From assembly GCA_021234155.1 (NCBI GenBank), contig JAJEKV010000017.1, positions 7,909,253-7,973,252 on the forward strand: a stretch of 64,000 nt of DNA. Reading direction: 5' to 3'. The stretch comes from Isoetes taiwanensis (lineage: Eukaryota > Streptophyta > Lycopodiopsida > Isoetales > Isoetaceae). The notes below the pieces were generated by a model. The model was given only the letters and a program-made list of their open reading frames with translations. It was not told where the DNA came from and searched no databases. The position numbers and the translations under genes are program-made. Shown piece after piece: positions 11,866-48,200 of this stretch. The first letter of the stretch is position 1, and each line of letters starts with the position of its first letter.

Positions 11866-12970
11866 TTTAGACTGAGATGCTTGCATATGAACATCCAAAA
11901 CATTCTAGAACATTCTATTTTGAGTGTTTGCAAAATTCCAAAAAACTTTCTATTTTTAGAGTGAGGTGTTTACCCTAAGCATGTGGAACATTCTAGAACA
12001 TTCTATTTTCAGTATTTGCAAAATTTCAAAAAACCTGCTATTTTTAGTTTGAGGCGCTTATCCAGGTGCATCTGGAACATTGTATTGTGAGTATTTGCAA
12101 TCTTTCAAAAAACTTACTATTTTTAGACTGAGATGCTTACCCATGAGCATCTCAAAATTTCAAAAAACTTACTATTTTTAGACTGAGGTGCTTGCCCGTG
12201 AGCATCTGAAACATTCCAGCATATTATATTTTGAGCATTTGTAAAGTTTCAAAAAACTTGCTATTTTTAGACCGAGGTGCTTGCCTGTGAGCATCTAAAA
12301 CATTCCAGAACATTCTATTTTGAGCATTTGCAAAGTTTCAAAAAACTTTCTATTTTTAGATTGAGGTACTTGCCTAGGAGCATCTGGAACATTCCAGAAC
12401 ATTCTATCTTGAGCATTTGCAAAGTTTCAAAAATTTTCTATTTTTAGCCTGAGGTGCTCACCCATGAGCATTTTGAACATTCTAGAAGATTTTAGAAGAT
12501 GCCAGAGCTATCTAGAACATTCTAGAACATCCTAGAGCATTCTTGAATTATTTAGCCCTCGCCCTTAACTATGTGTGAACTTCATCTGGAACATTCCAGA
12601 ACATTCTATTTTGAGCATTGCAAAGTTTCAAAAAACTTACTATTTTTAGACTGAGGTGCTTGATTCCAGCATATTCTATTTTGAGCATTTGTAAAGTTTC
12701 AAAAAATTGCTATTTTTAGACTGAGGTGCTTGCCTGTGAGCATCTGGAACATTCCAGAATATTTTATTTTGAGCATTTGCAAAGTTTCAAAAAAGTTTCT
12801 ATTTTTATCCTGAGGTGCTTGCCTACAAGCATCTGGAACATTCCAGAATATTCTATTTTTGAGCATTTGCAAAGTTTCAAAAAACTTTCTATTTTTAGCC
12901 TGAGGTGGTTACCCATGGGCATCTTGAACATTCTAAGACATTCTAGAAGATTCTAGAAGATGCCAGAGCT
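11866..12970 (+). repeat. Tandem array of about 88-bp units (right block)
   Basis: About twelve degenerate units; CATTCCAGAACATTCTAT occurs at 12301 and again at 12390, giving an 89-bp period. Typical unit order: CATTCCAGAACATTCTATTT, GAGCATTTGCAAAGTTTC, AAAAAACTTTCTATTTTTAG, CTGAGGTGCTTGCC. Several units are shortened or fused. The short open frame at 12726-12956 is only a translation of the repeat. The same family borders the other end of Helitron 1. Confidence 0.85.
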
Positions 12971-13049
12971 ATCTAGAACATCCTAGAACATCCTTGAATT
13001 ATTTATTTCGCCCTTAAGTATATGTGAACTTTTTTTTTTTCAATAAACT

Positions 13050-13125
13050 AATGCTTGGCCTAGTGGTAAATATGGGAGGTTTAGAGAGCAAAGACCAAGG
13101 TTCAAATCCCTTCCACAACCAAAAA
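13050..13125 (+). mobile_element. tRNA-derived SINE-like head
   Basis: CTTGGCCTAGTGGTAAA (A-box like) is followed about 50 nt later by GGTTCAAATCCC (B-box like), the internal promoter arrangement of tRNA-derived SINEs. There is no cloverleaf, so it is not a tRNA gene. The 3' body is unclear because the candidate retroelement starts at 13150. Confidence 0.5.
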
Positions 13126-13149
13126 GTTCTAAAATGGTGATTTCATTAT

Positions 13150-13329
13150 GAATGCAATGGTTCTATGCTATCATAGAACCATCATTCTTGGGAAGACGGC
13201 ATCCTATTTTGGGACCTTTTTTCGAGGGCCATTTTTAGATTCATCTATAAATTGTTCCATTTCCTTTATTTCTTTATCGGCCTTCTCTTTGAGTGTTCCA
13301 TCTTCTTTGCTTTCTTATCTCTACCTTTC
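13150..13329 (+). repeat. 180-bp direct repeat A1
   Basis: Identical by eye to 15874-16053. Near its left edge are 11-bp inverted arms ATGGTTCTATG and CATAGAACCAT around a 4-bp spacer, like a tyrosine-recombinase core site. Confidence 0.9.
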
Positions 13330-14383
13330 TACTCTTTCTAGTTAGATGTTTGGTATTCTTTTTGTTGAATAGGTTACTTAGTTCTTAGAATTTCTGTGCT
13401 TTTCTGTGAGTTTTAAGTTGATTAGAAATGGTAGATGTTGAATCGTTTCCACTAAATCTAAGCTTACTTTTAGGCTGATCAAAATTTTTAACCGTATGGT
13501 TTAGTATGCCCTTGATGTTCCCAAAACATGTTTTCTATTTGAACGTCTGTGTCAAAATTCTTCATGGCAAAACATCTTGAATGGAAATTATAATTATCTT
13601 GAATTTCCAACTCAAACAGATCATTATTGTAACTTCAATTTGCTCTCTGTGTCTTGTGCTTGTATGACTTACAGCATATTATGGGAATCATTAAAGAATT
13701 TTTTCATAGGTTCAGCACAAATCTTTAGTACTTGCAGTTTATCCTCAGATTTCTGCTTTAATAGTTTTGCAGACTATTCTTCTCTATCATTAATCTTCTG
13801 CACCTTCTGCACTTCTTTTTGAAGCTCCACTGCCATTATCAGTATGTTCATTATTGTCTATCTGCCCATGTGCATAGCTTGGAATCGAAAAATGTTAGAA
13901 GCTCTAATCAATCCTCATGACGGCAATAAAAAGCTTTAGATATCTGTGTGCAGCAAGAGACATAGAAGTCTACAGTCTGTATCTCCATATTTACCCAGAG
14001 ACTGGAAATGTCACAAACCCAGTTGTATGCACCAATTACTCGGCTCACCTATTACCGGGTTGCTAATTCCGTGGTCTTAAATGTGGACAACCATGATCCC
14101 ATCTACTTCAGCTATTCCTATCTTTCCTCGTCTGACACCTCGGGTTCAACTTTAGGTTCGGGTCCTGGTTAGCATCTTCTGATTTTTGCAGCAAAAGATC
14201 CGGCCAATGTATCCATGAATCAGAAACCAAGCAAAGCTAAACCTTATCTGCCATAGCCGAAAAAGGAAGTAAAAAACCCAGCAAAATCTTTACCTTATCT
14301 GCCATAGCCGGATTTGTGCCGGGATTTCCGGCTGCTTTGTGCAATGCTTTCGCAAATATCCTTCCTGTCTACAAATTTAGGTT

Positions 14384-15259
14384 TTGCTCTCCCTTTCTCT
14401 AACTATTCTTGGTATAGCTTTTCGTCTACCTATTATAAGTTTTTTCTTTTCGAAATTTGCCACAAAAACCTCTTTTTCAGCTAATAAGGTTATTTTTTCA
14501 TTGGCTAAACTAGGTTTATTTTGTGGATTGGCTATTTTTATTCATGACTCTGAGATATTTGTTCTTATTGGGGGCCATCTTTATCTTTCGGGCATAGCAT
14601 GCTTATTTTTTCCACTTTCTTTCCTGGAGAATTTCCTTTTCTCGATGGCATCTACTCGAGCCACTTCTCATAAGCATAAACGCAAGTATGTTGCTAAAGG
14701 ACGGTCGTCTATCCCTGTTAAGAAGCATCGCGCATCAGCTATTCCTTCCGTTAATTGCACTCCATTTTCTTCCCATGCTCCTCCCTTTGTGGGCCAAAAT
14801 TCTACGGTTCCCGGTGCTTCTTCTTTGGATGTTAATAACGAAATTCTACAAGCAATAAAACTCCAGTCTGCCCAAATCCAAGACTTACAAAGTTCTTTAT
14901 CCAGCCGATCTCATGTTAATGAGAAGATTGAGGCCTTGAGGTTGGAGATTCAGGAACGCACTTCTCGTGTCGTACCCACTTTTAAGAATGATCCAATTAG
15001 ACACCAGTACGAGTTCTTGTCCTCTATGCTAGACCGTTTTAACGATTTGTATTCTCGCTTGTCTGCATTGAGCCCTTCGATTCCTGATGATGTTCTTACA
15101 ATTGTGGAAGGGGGTAAGACGTCTGTTGCTCAACATATGAAGTTCTTGATTGTTGCAGACAAGGAGGGCTATGAGATAGCTCTCGATTTTGATGACCATA
15201 TTTTTCCTCCATTCTCCGTTGATGAAGCACTGCGTCTCAAACTCGCCCGCCAACGATGA
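14384..15259 (+). CDS. Gag-like ORF of the split-repeat element
   Basis: The frame is open for 291 codons, but the realistic start is the internal Met at about 14645 (MASTRATSHKHKRKYVAKGR), giving about 205 residues, because the upstream part is hydrophobic and shows no domain. The protein has a basic N-terminus, a Ser-rich linker, a short helix-rich segment (SAQIQDLQSSLSSRSHVNEK) and a C-terminal block with an IADK.GY motif followed by an acidic/aliphatic tail (VADKEGYEIALDFDD...EALRLKLARQR). That C-terminal pattern, a K..L.VAD..G[WY]..A..., resembles the Gag-like ORF1 of DIRS-type elements as I remember it. No zinc knuckle is present. No further element ORF follows. The frame has stayed open, which suggests recent activity or domestication. 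Confidence 0.55.
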   Translation: MLSLSLTILGIAFRLPIISFFFSKFATKTSFSANKVIFSLAKLGLFCGLAIFIHDSEIFVLIGGHLYLSGIACLFFPLSFLENFLFSMASTRATSHKHKRKYVAKGRSSIPVKKHRASAIPSVNCTPFSSHAPPFVGQNSTVPGASSLDVNNEILQAIKLQSAQIQDLQSSLSSRSHVNEKIEALRLEIQERTSRVVPTFKNDPIRHQYEFLSSMLDRFNDLYSRLSALSPSIPDDVLTIVEGGKTSVAQHMKFLIVADKEGYEIALDFDDHIFPPFSVDEALRLKLARQR

Positions 15260-15836
15260 CCTAGTTTGTGTTCATTAGTTGATTTACACCTTTGGTGGGC
15301 ATGGAACTCATTGTATTGACCCTTCTTTTGCCTCATTGGGGCAGGGGTTCCTTCCACGATTCATTGCTTAATTTGGTTTTTCATCTATACATTTTGTGCT
15401 TCTAGAGGCTAACTATTGATTTTTGCATTATTATTATTTATTATATTCTTTTGACAACCAATGTTTCTCGTTGTTTCTTGCTCTACTTCTTTAAGTTGCT
15501 CCGGATTGTCTTTTGTGTACGATTTATAGTGCGTAGGGTAGTTTTTCAAATCTTGGTCCTGGATCCTTTATACAGTCATTAATTTTCGTATTCATGGTTA
15601 ACCCTTGATATCTTGTGCTTTGCAATTTTATATTTCATTTTGTGTGGTGGCTTTTGTAGTTCGCGAGTCTTCACTTGTTGTGCTTGTCTATCAACTCTGG
15701 CTTTATATCTCCTTTCTTGTCACATTTGAGCATTACTAATGTGGTAGATGTATTCATTTTTAGGATCTCTGAGCATCCTGGATTTCATTTTAGTTTTCTC
15801 ATTTTCTAGATTTAGAGGTGGAGTGTTCCTCTTCTG

Positions 15837-15880
15837 TCGGCTATGTTATTTGTTGTTGTATAGAGTCTCCCAAGAATGCA
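15837..15880 (+). repeat. 44-bp direct repeat B1
   Basis: Same 44 bases as 16889-16932. It overlaps the start of A2 by seven bases. The B1/A2 junction forms a palindrome with CCAAGAATG and CATTCTTGG as outer arms. Confidence 0.9.
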
Positions 15881-16053
15881 ATGGTTCTATGCTATCATAG
15901 AACCATCATTCTTGGGAAGACGGCATCCTATTTTGGGACCTTTTTTCGAGGGCCATTTTTAGATTCATCTATAAATTGTTCCATTTCCTTTATTTCTTTA
16001 TCGGCCTTCTCTTTGAGTGTTCCATCTTCTTTGCTTTCTTATCTCTACCTTTC
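15874..16053 (+). repeat. 180-bp direct repeat A2
   Basis: Second copy of the A repeat, immediately after B1. Identity with the first copy ends sharply after CTACCTTTC. Confidence 0.9.
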
Positions 16054-16139
16054 CCACCCTCCCCACCCTGTTATTGGTTTTGTTATGTTCACTGCGCTAT
16101 AATCGATTGGTTATTTGTTTTTTCTTTTTAAATTTTTCT

Positions 16140-16300
16140 TGCTTACGGGCGGATGTTCTTCCCCGTACTAGTTTGCAGATGCTTTTGCCCTGGCTAGGCG
16201 GATGTTCTTCCCCGTCCCGTTCTCAGAAGTTTTGCTCGATGGATGGATGTTTTCCCCGCTCTAGTTTGCAGAAGTTTTTCCTGGCTAGGCGGATGTCCTC
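16140..16300 (+). repeat. About 48-bp tandem repeats (GGCGGATGTTCTTCCCCG)
   Basis: Four imperfect units carrying GGCGGATGTTCTTCCCCG and GTTTGCAGAAG lie between A2 and B2. A further pair of about 100-bp units with ATTTTTTCGACTTTTTGCTA follows at about 16480-16630. Confidence 0.7.
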
Positions 16301-16888
16301 TGTCCTTTTTCTGTACTTTTTCTTTAAGTCTATTTAAGTTTGAAAGACTAACAATTTTGATGGGTGAAGTGGTTTGAGTTGCCTTTTATTAGGTTTTCTT
16401 GCGCGAGCACATTGAATCAAGTCTTCTGGGGTTTTTGGGCATTGCGATCTTTCATTTTTCGGCATGTTTGGTGTTGGCAGTGCGTGGGAAGCCTGCTTTG
16501 CGCATAGAGATATTTCGACTTATTGCTTCTATTCAGATCCCAATGTTATCGGTGCGCATGAAGCTTGCTAGCGGATGGAGATTTTTTCGACTTTTTGCTA
16601 CTATTTGGATCTCAACAGTATCGGTTGTATCACTCTTAGTCCATTTTTTATCCTCATGGTTTTCCCCGAAAACCCAAAAGGGCGGGGTTTTTAGTCCAGT
16701 TGATAAGATTTCGGACTTCGAGTTTGTGTGGCTTTATTTTATTTTTTTCTTTTTATAAGACCTCCGATGATTGTCTAGTTTCGGGGTTTTAAGAGGTGTT
16801 TGGCTTTACATATTTTATGGCCATCCATTATTACTATTCTATTGTTGTACTTGTTTTTTGGAACACTCAATAAGAAAGCCACTTCACT

Positions 16889-16932
16889 TCGGCTATGTTA
16901 TTTGTTGTTGTATAGAGTCTCCCAAGAATGCA
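16889..16932 (+). repeat. 44-bp direct repeat B2
   Basis: Second copy of the B repeat and the proposed right end of the element. Beyond it the sequence changes to the leader of the LTR at 17171. Confidence 0.9.
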
Positions 16933-17170
16933 TAATTTCCACTCCAATTTTACTAAAAAGTTCATTTGACTCATTCCTTTTTCCCTCAATCTATCGTTTA
17001 GCCTAACTCTATGACCCTACTACTTGGGAGAAAAATCCCTCCCCCCCTTCCTTGAGGTGCAATGCTGGAATTTTCCATTCCACGCTGTTCTAGGTCGATT
17101 AATCTACTTCAACAGGGTTATGGTCAGTGCTAGCTCTTGGTCAACCAAGAACATTGCTCTGATATCATTG
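16933..17170 (-). other. Putative LTR-retrotransposon leader with primer-binding site
   Basis: On the minus strand, TGATATCAGAGCAATG at about 17152-17167 resembles the initiator-Met tRNA primer-binding site (TGGTATCAGAGC). It sits directly inside the end of the LTR at 17171. The leader continues to 16933, where the split-repeat element begins, so the retrotransposon body is cut off there. Confidence 0.45.
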
Positions 17171-20184: not shown

Positions 20185-21505
20185 TTAATAAAAACCTGAC
20201 CTGCCATGGTCTTACAATAAATGGCATTGTTCATAAATGTCTTAGTAGCTCGTACTTATAACTCACTCTCTCTCAATTTCAGCCTTAATAGTGTGCCTCA
20301 ATTTCTCAAAGTTATCAAGCAATGGCAGCAAGCTGCAGATAAGGCCTTCCTTTAAAATTGTTTAAGAACCTTGAGTATAAGAATTTTCGTTAACTAGAGC
20401 CTCTCGTTCCCCTAATTCCTTGTGTTTCTATCACCTCCCTATCTTTCCAAATCTTTTATATCTCTTCAAGGAAAAATCTTACAAGAAAACAGATTATAGT
20501 CCAGCCAGTTAAAAACGCTACCCATTACCCAGCCTTTACATGGTATTCGCATGTAAGAACCTGATAAGCTAAAGGGGTGCATGCATATTCTAAAAACTCA
20601 CCGAAGGATCAACAAACTCTTTACCAGTAGTCTCAACACTTGACAGCCCATGTGACTTGAGAATCTCCATGAGTTGTAAATGTCCCGGTAGCTCTTGCTT
20701 ATAACTCGTTCTCTCTCCGTTTCAGCCTTAATAGTGTGCTTCAATTTCTCAAAGTTATCAAGCACTGCAGCTTGCTGCCGATAAGGACTTTCTTTGAAAT
20801 TGTTTAAGAGCCTTGAATATAAGAATTTTAGTTAACTACAACCTTTCGTTTCCTTGATTCCCTGTGTGCTCTATCCCCTCCCTATCTTCCAAATCTTTTA
20901 TATCCCTTTAACAAATAATCTTACAACAAACAAGAGAGTATTCCAGCCAGTTCAAATTGCTACCCAGCCTTTACATGGTGTTCCATTTTAAATACATGTA
21001 AGAACGTGATAAGCTAAAGGGGTCCAACTACAAATGCATATTTTAAAAACTCACCGACGGATCAACAAACTCTTTACCAGTAGTCTCAATACTTGACAGC
21101 CTATGTGACTTGAGGATCTCCATGAATTGTTCATAAATCTCCTAGTAGTTCTTACATATAACTCGTCCTCTCTCAGTTTCAGCCTTAATAACGTGCTTCA
21201 ATTTCTCAAAGCTATCAAGCACTGGCAGAAAGCTGCGGATAAGGCCTTCCTTTGAGATTGTTTGAGAACCTTGAATATAAGAATTTTGATTAACTAGAGC
21301 CTCTCGTTCCCTTGATTCTCTGTGTGCTCTATCCCCTCCCCATCTTTCCAGATCTTTTATATCTCTTTGACAAATAATCTTACAACAAAAAAGATTACAG
21401 TCCAGCCAGTTCATATTGCTACCCAGCCTTTTTACATGGTATTCCATTTTTAATACATGTAAGAAGGTGATAAGCTGAAGGACTAGAACTAAAAATGCAT
21501 ATTCT
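20185..21505 (-). pseudogene. Serial decayed copies of the GrpE exon
   Basis: Tandem units of about 450-463 bp each hold a copy of the 3' half of the GrpE exon plus adjoining intron sequence. The exon-end mark CTCACC..GGATCAACAAACTC recurs at about 20598, 21048 and 21511. The AGTTTCAGCCTTAATA..GTGCTTCAATTTCTCAAA block recurs at about 20275, 20720, 21175 and 21640. The unit at about 21142-21270 still reads EGLIRSFLPVLDSFEKLKHV. In the copies, the first half of the exon is replaced by unrelated sequence (AACCTTGAATATAAGAATTTT...). Stops and small indels break them. They could be alternative or dead exons of the gene at 21516-22920. Confidence 0.8.
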
Positions 21506-21515
21506 AAAAACTCAC

Positions 21516-22920
21516 CAAAGGATCAACAAACTCTTTACCAGTAGTCTCAATACTTGATAGCCCATGTGATTTGAGAATCTCCATGAGTTGTTCATAAATG
21601 TCCTGGTAGCTCTTACTTATAACTCGTTCTCTCTCAGTTTCAGCCTTAATAGTGTGCTTCAATCTCTCAAAGTTATCAAGCACTGGCAGCAAGCTGCGGA
21701 TAAGGTCTTCCTTTGTAATTGTTTCTGCTTTCTGCAGTTGTACGGCATTCTGATATTTCTCAAGTTCCGGATGCAAACATGAGACAAGATTTCTATCTGC
21801 ACTAATCACCTCAGAAATAGCATTCTTAGATGGAAAAACCTCCTGACTGTCAGGAGGCAAACTGAAGCTGCCACTGACACTGCTTCCTTCCTTTGGCACC
21901 TCATTGCTGACGTGCTCAAAGTCTTCGTGCTGCAAAAAGGGAAGAGCAAGGACATATAACATATCAAAAATGAAATAAGGACATATAAACATGCATTCAA
22001 ATAGTTGAACTTAGAAGCTCACGCGTGCATACGTAGCACATAATATTGAATAAGTGCAAGTGTAGCCTCCCTTCAGATTATTACAGTTACATCATAACAT
22101 CCATACCAACCAAGTAGACAAACAATAAAGGGTATAATCTCTTTGGTCTTGGTGGTAATACTGGAAAAGAATTAATTTTCAAGATTGTCAGTGTACCTGA
22201 GATCAAACTTTAGTTGCTCAGCTTTTTCCTATCATTCTCAACCTATCTAGATTCTAAGACCACATAAAAAAGATGCTATTCCACATTATCTTCAGACTAT
22301 CAATGCACTTTATTGGAGATTACCATAACAGTAGAATGGAAAGACAAGGCACATGCGCTAACCTTCCTTTTCTTATTCTTTGCTAAAAGAAGTTTTGACA
22401 CTTGTTGCTGCATTGTAAGTAGCATTTCAGTACGTTTTAGCTCTATTTCAGTGCGCCTTTTCTCCATTTCAATTCGGCGACACTCTGCTTCGGCTCTAAG
22501 TCTTTCTGCATCTCGATGCATTTCCAACTTGGCATCTTCTATTTTCATAATAGATTCTCCGAAGCATCGAATAGCTTCTAATACCTCTTGAGCTGACTGT
22601 TCATTCTCCGAAGGTTTACAGTTCCAGTCATTAGCCAAAAATAATTTAGACTCTTTCAAATTGAAGTACTCATGTGATGAGTCTAAGTGAGGCAAACTGG
22701 GAGACACATCTGCCATGCTTAATGTCTTTCCACCTGCTGCCCCTTTCCTGATTAATTTTGCAATGCCTTCTTGCACATCAGTCTCCCAATTTTGGTGGCT
22801 CTCAACTTGGTCACTGCTATATGGTCTACTCCCATCGACGGAAAGGTGCTCCCCTGAGTCCATCCCACCAGGTATAACAGCCAGTTTAGGACTTGAAGAC
22901 CTATTTGTACTCATTTGCAT
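21516..22920 (-). CDS. Chimeric gene: trihelix-like C-terminal tail spliced in frame to a GrpE co-chaperone segment (partial)
   Basis: Exon 1 (22920-22363, start at MQMSTNRSSS; a second ATG at 22914) encodes about 186 residues ending AKNKKRK at donor GTTAGC. Its last 70 residues (AIRCFGESIMKIEDAKLEMH... RRTEIELKRTEMLL) match the coiled tail of trihelix/ASIL-type transcription factors, without their DNA-binding domain. Exon 2 (21929-21516) begins HEDFEHVSNEV after acceptor TTTTGCAG, in the same phase. It carries the GrpE core: DLIRSLLPVLDNFERLKHTI, SYQDIYEQLMEILKSHGL, ETTGKEFVDPL up to a GTGAG donor. GrpE is the nucleotide-exchange factor of Hsp70/DnaK in plastids and mitochondria. The C-terminal beta-wing exon of GrpE is not found downstream, where only decayed exon copies lie. 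Whether it is expressed is unknown; it may be a transduplicate. Confidence 0.6.
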
Positions 22921-45204: not shown

Positions 45205-48200
45205 TATTAAAAGAATGACTGATTCAGAGAGAAATTTATGGAGGAATGCATACTATAGACAAAGGTACGCTAATTTAACTGAGAGAGACGTGCAGCCTCT
45301 AGAAGCATAGTAATTCCCAACATAACTCCCACCGACGAACGAAGACATAGGGTGCAAAGATGGAGAGAACATGCAAGGCAACGTTCAGATTCAATAAACA
45401 CTCCCACTAATATGTTGTCAGGCTCGATAGTAGGAATTCCTTTGTCATGCAGGCAAATCTACCACAAAACGAAATGAGATTGTTAGACCCCAACAAGCGA
45501 AGAGAATGTAGCGATGATTTAGAACAAGGGCATTTGGCACGTTAAAAGCTGTGCACGACGTATGAGCTTGGCAATAAATCGAACTTATACTATGTGTACA
45601 TGGAATAAGAGGTGCACATATTGCCAAATCCCACTATTGAATGTCGAGCAGGATGGATTTTATTGCAACAATGGAAGATGGTAGCTCCCACCATTACCTC
45701 CTTTGCCCGTACCATTGAACAATACAACATACCCGATTTTCAAACGGACGCCAGAAAGATTAATAGACTGTTTTGCTTCAGTGTGCTTGGAATCGATGGC
45801 GGATTTCTGAACCTAGATTTTCCTTCTTCCGTCACAATTACTGGTCGCACATATCACAGAATACTTCCTACAACAGATACAGAAAATCCTATACATTGGT
45901 ACATCTATGATGAATCACAACGTTATGTACATGCACGTAACCAAGCAGTGCCATTTCAATGGATTATGACCATTGCTTCGATTCTTTCTCAAATAAATCC
46001 ATTTATTAGTCATCTTCGAACCATGGGAAGCATGCATATGCCATCGGCATACATAACAATTGAAGGAGTTATAGCAAGCGATGAGATTGCAGCCATCGCT
46101 GAGGTTAACAACACAGCTGATATTAGGCCCCGTGTTGCTGGTCTTTGGGTGCAAAACCAAGGGGAACCAACCTGCATGAATATTCTAGACCCCATGTATG
46201 AACCACTTCAGTACCCTCTATTCTATCCGCACGACACATTAGGTTGGAGACCTACGAACGAGTACAATCTCACACAGTTGCAATGGTATAGAGTGAGGTT
46301 GTTGCATGAAGAACAATTCCTACAATTAGGTCGACTTTGCGGGGAGTACTTAGTTGATATGTACTCAAGGGTTGAGGATGCCCGACTGAACTACTTTAGG
46401 ACGTCAGTCTTTCGAAAGAGGAGAACACAATATGACGAGGATTACTCTGAGCGAGAGAACGATGATCGAAATGACGTCATCTTGCCTGCATCATTCTTAG
46501 GGAGTAAAAGATAGTGTTCAATGCAAGTAGCAGACGCGTTGGCACTTTCTCGGGCAAAAGGTTGTCCCACCTTATTCATCACAATGACAACAAATGTAGA
46601 TTGGCCTGAGATTTGGGTTGCACTTAGACCATGACAAAATGCCTCTGATGCCCCTATGGTTGTTGTTCGATGTTTTCATGGTAGGCTACCACGGTTGAAA
46701 GAGTTGCTACGAAAATTCTTTCAGCGGATATCATACATGATTCATGTCATGGAATTTCAAAAACGAGGATTACCCCATGCACATCTTGTGCTGCGTACAG
46801 AGCCTGAAATACCAATTGAATGTATTGATGAAATCATTTCTGCTGAACTGCCATCGGATCCAGTTCTTCATGCACAAGTCCAAAAATTTATGATACATAG
46901 GCACACAGAAAGATGCTCTGGCAACAATACCCCCTGTTGTTACAAGTTTCCAAAGCCTGTGAATCCCCTGACATATCTTGATTCAGAGAAATCCAGAGGA
47001 TATGTGGGTAGTTCCATATAATGCTTTCTTGCTGCATGAGTTAGATTGTCATATCACATTAGACATTGCGTCTACTGTGCATGTGTTCTCCTATCTCTAT
47101 AGTTACATATACAAAGGGTTCGATACTGCCAATTTTCGAGTAACTCAAGAGCACCAATCTACGTCTCAACCATCATCAATGAATAATCAACAGACATGTT
47201 ATACATCACAGTCCTTAGCAAGAAATGTTGAAGAAAGAACAGAGGCCATGAGAGAATCAATCCAAAATATATCAGTGGATCAAAGTGTAAGACAACCTTC
47301 TACAAATGAGATACGTGATTACGTCAGTGCACGTTATTTGTCTGCCACAGAGGCATCATGGAGGATAATGTCATATCATATAACAGATAAATTTCCATCT
47401 GTTAAATGCCTTCCATTACACCTACCATTGCCAAATACAAATTCACTCTTGGACCACTATTTTTTACGGCCCCTAGAGTCTGAGTTCGATGCTTTTACAT
47501 ACGTCCAATACTATGAGCATTATACATTAAGCACATGCAATGGCATATCTATTTTGCAACTCAAGAGCACCAATCTACGTCTCAACCATCATCAATGAAT
47601 AATCAATAGACATGTTATACATCACAGTCCTTAGCAAGAAATGTTGAAGAAAGAACAGAGGCCATGAGAGAATCAATCCAAAATATATCAGTGGATCAAA
47701 GTGTAAGACAACCTTCTACAAATGAGATACGTGATTACGTGAGTGCACCTTATTTGTCTGCCACAGAGGCATCATGGAGGATAATGTCATATCATATAAC
47801 AGATAAATTTCCATCTGTTAAATGCCTTCCATTACACCTACCATTGCCAAATACAAATTCACTCTTAGACCACTATTTTTGATGGCCCCTAGATTCTAAG
47901 TTCGATGCTTTTACATACGTCCAATACTATGAGCATTATACATTAAGCACATGCAATGGCATATCTATTTTGCAACATGGCGAATACCTAGAACAAGAAC
48001 GAGCAGGATATACAAAAAACATTGTGAAAAAGAGAACAAAGCAATCGATTATATGTAGAATACGCCTCTTACTGCCTCGAATTGGTGAAGCATTCTATCT
48101 AAGACAAATCTTGCTACATCGACCCGTCAGGACATGGGAAGAACTCAAGGTCGTAAATAATCAGCAATATGAAACTTATCGACAAGCTGCAGAAGCACAA

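Follow-up and report, generated by a model that had tools for sequence, protein, structure and literature searches.

A gag-only element with interlocked direct repeats in Isoetes taiwanensis and its relatives with reverse transcriptase and tyrosine recombinase

In a 64,000-nucleotide stretch of the genome of the quillwort Isoetes taiwanensis (assembly GCA_021234155.1, contig JAJEKV010000017.1, positions 7,909,253 to 7,973,252; the whole stretch is called the window here), two pairs of direct repeats interlock around an open reading frame (ORF), and the question raised by this locus is what kind of mobile element it represents, and how such an element could move. We consider that it is very probably a non-autonomous, gag-only, split-direct-repeat retrotransposon of the tyrosine recombinase (YR) group, nearest to the PAT type, and mobilised by the enzymes of fuller relatives. 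As far as sequence comparison can establish them, the structure, the family, the enzyme-bearing relatives, the ends, the empty sites, the match of the core to its target and the constraint on the recombinase are established.

The window element and its family

The A copies of the window (13150-13329 and 15874-16053) are 180 nucleotides long, 100% identical and 2724 positions apart, while the B copies (15837-15880 and 16889-16932) are 44 nucleotides long, 100% identical and 1052 apart, in the order A1 - B1A2 - B2. This agrees with the first-pass annotation, which had described two exact and interlocked pairs with these coordinates and spacings. Its further statement that B1 and A2 overlap by GAATGCA holds for the overlap itself, but the seven letters are a GAAT core plus neighbouring letters; likewise, both ends are common to the copies, but the common start is (T)GCAATGG and not GAATGCA. 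Because the copies have only (T)GCAATGG at the left and CCCAAGAAT at the right in common, the element is bounded at about 13154-16929 (~3.8 kb), and the GAAT preceding A1 and the GCA following B2 belong to the core or the target. Its features, with the strand where one is given, are as follows.

13150..13153, +: left-end GAAT core, letters shared or from the target, differing among copies
13154..13329, +: A1, left terminal repeat, identical to A2 in 176/176 columns
14645..15259, +: Gag ORF, 204 amino acids, without zinc knuckle, homologous to the Gag of other copies
15837..15877, +: B1, internal right-end copy as far as the AAT core, identical to B2
15865..15921, +: two-stem hairpin spanning the B1-A2 junction, 2-base bulge adjoining the crossover, from the DNA fold
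15878..16053, +: A2, internal left-end copy, identical to A1
16054..16888, +: Y segment, A2 to B2, which aligns in L001-L007 with differing lengths
16150-16296: 45-bp imperfect tandem array inside the Y segment
16889..16929, +: B2, right terminal repeat with the AAT core at its end; 65 genomic places have the pattern Y-end+B2

The genome was searched over 1,658,258,908 bases in 1110 contigs, and the loci cut out of it are numbered from L001 (contigs carry the letter C). With A as query, 40 of 369 candidates were scored and 47 matches obtained, among which ten pairs lie on the same strand at distances of 2.6-4.2 kb, the window pair included. Eight of the nine other pairs were cut out as L001-L008, the C1032 pair being left out. 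All eight have A1 followed by B1A2, and seven of them have B2 within the stretch, so that the search for other copies sharing both ends, which the first-pass annotation had recommended, was successful; L002 and L007 have common flanks and are counted as one insertion. The order A1-X-B1A2-Y-B2 is thus kept in other copies, with Y aligned in L001-L007. A1 does not differ from A2 in the window, L001 or L006; in L008 the two are 88.5% identical.

That A and B are two unrelated dispersed repeats which interlock by accident is next to impossible, given that L001-L008 and relatives with different internal sequence have the same interlocked order, and that the exact pattern X-end+B+A is found at 94 places and Y-end+B2 at 65, against 0 for the reversed-pattern controls. 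Chance was ruled out on the same ground, the order being kept in independent insertions. With up to two mismatches, the junction pattern occurs at 136 genomic places. Contamination is unlikely because the family is present on many long contigs.

The frame between A1 and B1, described earlier as Gag-like, runs from stop to stop over 14384-15259, with its first ATG at 14645. At the amino acid level, its product is 93-94% identical to that of L001, L003, L004 (in two pieces) and L005, ~72% to L006 and L008, 48-58% to L007 and L002 (broken), 59% to the Gag of L018 and 46%, over 197 residues, to the Gag of L009; a genome search with it gave 154 matches. Judged by these alignments, the ORF is a homologue of the Gag of enzyme-bearing relatives, as had been suspected. 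An AlphaFold model of this Gag by itself had a mean pLDDT of 52 and was not used. With the L009 proteins as queries, no trace of reverse transcriptase (RT) or recombinase was found in the window at E<=1e-4, and by this measure the element is gag-only and non-autonomous, in line with the earlier description.

Enzyme-bearing relatives, ends and target sites

A profile search of the genome with PF00589 gave 58 matches, and five of these loci were cut (L009, L010, L011, L012 and L013). PF00589 scores above its cut-off in L009, L011 and L012, and in these three split repeats of the kind seen in the window adjoin the YR. The order A1, Gag region, RT-RNase H frame, YR, B1A2 and B2 is read in L009 with L022: its RT-RNase H frame of 677 amino acids matches PF00078 (2.6e-16) and PF13456 (4e-4, just under the PF13456 cut-off), and its YR of 326 amino acids matches PF00589 (6.8e-10). 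L012 has A1, RT pieces, YR, B1A2 and B2; L011 with L023 has A1, YR, B1A2 and B2; and L018 with L020 has A1, Gag, RT-RNase H, YR, B1A2 and B2. In L018 and L019, each of which has breaks, the window's junction sequence goes together with Gag, RT-RNase H and YR. A1 was located upstream of L018, L009 and L011. In all, split repeats in the order A1...B1A2...B2 occur in L009, L011, L012, L014, L016 and L018, and they are incomplete in the stretches taken for L010, L015, L017 and L019, the first of which does have the junction hairpin. The full partner that the first-pass annotation advised looking for, with RT-RNase H and recombinase between A1 and B1, therefore exists, one example having the window's own junction sequence.

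The L009 RT-RNase H found 72 matches in the genome, several of them stop-free, and the RT-RNase H profile matches Ty3 RT in PDB (1.4e-20), as the YR profile matches the Tre/Cre recombinase (best E 8.4e-7). The YR residues R, K, HxxR, H..W and Y are invariant in 13 aligned sequences out of 18 cut (L010, L019, L038, L045 and L050, which are broken, partial or changed, were left out); in L038 the first catalytic Arg is lost. Read from its substitutions, the recombinase of the relatives is under constraint: the ratio of nonsynonymous to synonymous changes (dN/dS), calculated with our own script for 15 of the 18 sequences (L010, L019 and L045 left out), has a median of 0.13 over the 32 of 105 pairs with 0.02<dS<1.5, and the highest value, 0.53, involves L038. 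The zinc knuckle CX2CX4HX4C is present in the Gag region of L009, L010, L018 and L019, with a remnant behind a stop in L008, and was not found in the Gag of the window, L001, L003-L006, L011 or L012. In the tail after RNase H, the sole Pfam match listed is the Dam-like PF05869, below its cut-off (E 0.029 in L009 and 0.15 in L041). The RT of L016 (PF00078, 7e-36) was set aside on account of its motifs, which look like those of a nested LINE.

Apart from this family, L013 (C1041:9433500-9443499) holds an open frame for a second kind of YR protein, of ~410 amino acids, with no repeats of the window family within its 10 kb. Other PF00589 matches, covering profile positions ~88-167, are of this L013-like kind, which we presume could be Crypton-derived or domesticated.

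The ends were compared with empty sites by searching the genome with the joined flanks of L009, L004, L014, L005 and L016. For L009, with 110 candidates, all 40 scored matches cross the junction, at 93-99%; for L004 there is one spanning match, at 95%, for L014 there are several, at 84-94%, and for L005 looser ones. In the seven aligned sites read for L009, L004 and L014, the junction shows neither duplication nor loss of bases. No clean empty site was obtained for L016, whose matches extend only 11-16 bases past the junction and were not counted. On these alignments, the empty sites of L009, L004 and L014 show insertion without target-site duplication, as the first-pass annotation had anticipated, with two exceptions that are weighed below. 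A long terminal repeat element with duplications was ruled out, since neither the ends nor the empty sites fit it.

Directly before the TGC with which the element starts, an A is present in 12 of 13 insertions, a set that does not include L007, L008, L015, L017 and L019. Over the left ends of these 13, 31 of 39 positions match GAA, compared with a null mean of 10.8 and 0 of 20000 draws as high. The right end of L001 has target-like letters in the core. The L009 flanks themselves belong to a family of at least 40 copies, 93-99% identical over 220 bases (an empty site is, e.g., C908:13710984-13711203), and adjoin a 227-amino-acid frame.

Cryptons, which use the same recombinase, and Helitrons also insert without target duplication, and the window copy has no RT; a Crypton-like DNA transposon or a rolling-circle element, and not a retroelement, could thus be proposed. 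We judge this very unlikely because Ty3-like RT-RNase H and a zinc-knuckle Gag are present in relatives whose ends are of the same kind. Moreover, repeats of this type anneal during reverse transcription in the Ngaro/PAT model, as outlined in the relevant part of PMC6681497.

The junction, the circle and a covarying hairpin

For the YR retrotransposon that we favour, the cycle would start with transcription across the whole element, followed by reverse transcription by the Ty3-like RT-RNase H of a relative. With the internal B1A2 copy as template, the two ends would then be repaired and joined into a circle whose junction is B2-A1, and the relative's YR would recombine the AAGAAT core of this junction with a short A-rich chromosomal match. 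TATA-like strings lie ~100 bases into the A repeats of the window, L009, L016 and L017; they would place the transcription start inside A, and the internal copy would then restore the end.

The best trace of a closed B2-A1 junction seems to be L053 (C1049:12911400-12921399), which reads X1-B(type 1)-A-Y(type 1)-B(type 2)-A-X2-B(type 2)-A-Y(type 2)-B(type 1)-flank. Its two Y segments, typed with four further loci, are 99.3% identical to type 1 and 97% to type 2, and this typing ruled out that L053 is a circle opened at its internal junction. A 228-base B-A stretch in it is identical to the B1A2 of the same element. The order fits one crossover, to the left of B, of a resident type-1 element with a type-2 molecule that already had B2 joined to A1, although conversion within a tandem array could also account for it.

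If a circle contains two equal B-A junctions, permuted copies are expected, with Y-end+B+A inside and X-end+B at the right end. Y-end+B+A, searched for with an exact A (the flanks of the other 64 Y-end+B2 places being unread), occurs only once, in L053, versus 65 Y-end+B2 places. X-end+B occurs at 115 places, and by subtraction 26 of these are without exact GCAATGG (115 are set against the 94 with X-end+B+A, five of the 94 having another base before CAAGAAT). Among the 100 places listed are 23 of the 26, the three unlisted ones falling outside the examination; five of the 23 have a Y-B2 end 1.0-1.7 kb further on, one has a changed A, and 17 were cut and read by eye. Fifteen of the 17 continue into a changed A2, and two end in flank without A1, one being a 74-base fragment. 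L059/L076 (C157) and L070/L075 (C1031) run from X-end+B straight into flank, with neither A2 nor A1, and are possible X-only or permuted remnants. Judged by these patterns, there are a few candidates for permuted copies at most.

The same counts bear on a tandem insertion of two shorter elements with equal ends, A-X-B and A-Y-B, which would formally give the same string as the window element; a compound of two full elements does exist, at C1049 (L053). This is extremely improbable: Y follows B1A2 in independent insertions and in distinct subfamilies, and only 2 of the 23 listed X-end+B places without exact GCAATGG end in flank, both without A1. These counts do not include a directed search for lone A-Y-B copies.

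Besides the fact that no circularly permuted copy was shown, a second surprising feature is that the B-A junction appears to form a hairpin kept by paired changes across subfamilies. In the window, the DNA fold of the B1-A2 junction has -21.7 kcal/mol (z -9.17, 0/200 shuffles as good), and in all six subfamily sequences tested the folded junction has two stems and, adjoining AAT(G), a bulge or internal loop, with z from -8.9 to -10.9 and 0/200 shuffles each; the loop is a 2-base bulge in four of the six, with small asymmetric loops in L012 and L010. In an alignment of nine hand-chosen and related junction sequences, in which the inner stem of L010 is one column out of register, 95.4% of cells pair (89.8% when shuffled, 0/500 as high), five pairs are changed on both sides (1/500 as high), and covariation is 0.192 versus 0.115 (0/500). 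Slid versions of the alignment pair at most at 53%, and further pair types show no excess over shuffles (359/500).

Integron integrases act on folded attC sites. By analogy, the folded B-A hairpin in single-stranded cDNA could be the site of the recombinase, during or right after end joining, an idea that we put forward as doubtful. It could explain why B2-A1, rather than the internal B1A2, is where copies open; the B-A junction would be complete only in the internal copy and in a newly closed circle. If true, this would be, to our knowledge, the first folded-site integration for a eukaryotic retroelement; no such case was listed in a literature search.

Several observations weigh against the window element being a mobilised gag-only member of this family. 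No permuted copies were shown by the pattern searches of the genome. The window copy lies outside the set of five loci used for empty sites, and the joined flanks of L005 match more loosely (77-83%), the alignments having gaps of 6-9 bases immediately to the left of the junction. An additional T stands at the left end of L003, and the right end of L018 (with L020), alone among the insertions examined, repeats 16 bases of the left junction, as a conversion tract or a duplication. B2 was not found in the L008 stretch, nor A1 upstream of L019. The relatives are damaged: the RT match of L018 has two stops, L019 is spread over several frames, the RT of L012 is in pieces and L011 is without an intact Gag. 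Lastly, the window Gag has no Pfam match at E<=1, and dN/dS for Gag in four gag-only copies is 0.22-0.43 on few changes, i.e., weak constraint.

Elsewhere in the window, other tandem arrays lie at 11899-13031, 20226-21724 and 47142-47976, with units of ~89, 461 and 416 bp. The segment directly left of A1 (13040-13149) has A- and B-box-like strings and resembles a tRNA-derived SINE; ARAGORN finds no tRNA in the window. Rfam gives no match in the window at gathering scores and none at E<=1 within 12900-17100.

Classification and the record in land plants

The assignment to the PAT/Ngaro/VIPER class made in the first-pass annotation is supported, and within it the evidence favours PAT over Ngaro and VIPER: the zinc knuckles, the forward YR before B1A2 and the sub-threshold Dam-like match in the tail. 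PAT is a working label, given with no tree, because PMC4157794 warns, in the passage concerned, that the features defining these groups are homoplasious. A DIRS1-like element is disfavoured since the terminal repeats are direct and not inverted, the only inverted relation seen being the junction hairpin.

TOC1 of Chlamydomonas is a non-autonomous split-repeat element of the green lineage, from an alga. With the PAT type (Pat1-like, Toc3, Kangaroo), the quillwort family shares split direct repeats, RT-RNase H and a forward YR before B1A2, and its relatives, unlike the window copy, share the zinc-knuckle Gag of Pat1-like elements as defined in the part of PMC4157794 on these groups; the Dam-like segment after RNase H is a partial likeness, weak and below cut-off. 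It differs in its land-plant host and in the window copy having Gag only. Ngaro has the same A1-[ORFs]-B1A2B2 order and a YR with HxxR and Tyr, according to the description in PMC8547959, whereas the Dam-like domain, here merely hinted at, marks the DIRS side in the section of PMC3783388 on this point. VIPER/TATE elements, likened by description only, also have A1 at the 5' end and then B1, A2 and B2, but their hosts in the corresponding text of PMC6681497 are kinetoplastids.

The first-pass annotation had also held that such elements are rarely reported in land plants, which fits one 2022 review, whose relevant passage does not count land plants among the hosts of DIRS elements. It sits less well with published repeat tables for one fern and two seed plants. 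These tables, or the accompanying text, give 361 'DIRS' elements (45 kb) in C-fern (PMC6890710), 98,513 (2.42%) in Dracaena (PMC6294377) and 8.26% 'DIRS' in Cunninghamia (PMC13415678); as excerpted, they give no structure from which to tell whether the entries are YR elements or pipeline labels. A 2024 review counts DIRS among plant retrotransposons in its overview (PMC11630846), and a charophyte Gypsy element with DIRS-like repeats is mentioned in PMC5890265. No land-plant YR retrotransposon is described in the titles and abstract openings of the literature searched, and neither 'DIRS' nor 'tyrosine recombinase' occurs in the main texts of two Isoetes genome papers (one being PMC8566536). Iyer and Aravind (2012; PMC3537659) derive the plant ALOG regulators from a DIRS1-class element and state, in the part concerned, that complete elements of this source are not known from streptophytes; we claim no likeness between the quillwort elements and the ALOG-source kind.

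The kind of element is therefore already known, and the new interest is in its land-plant host, a quillwort, in the hairpin and in the missing permutations. Taken together, the ends, the enzymes, the empty sites and the dependent gag-only group provide a plant system for a little-studied route of integration, and the junction hairpin and the lack of permuted copies are open to bench tests.

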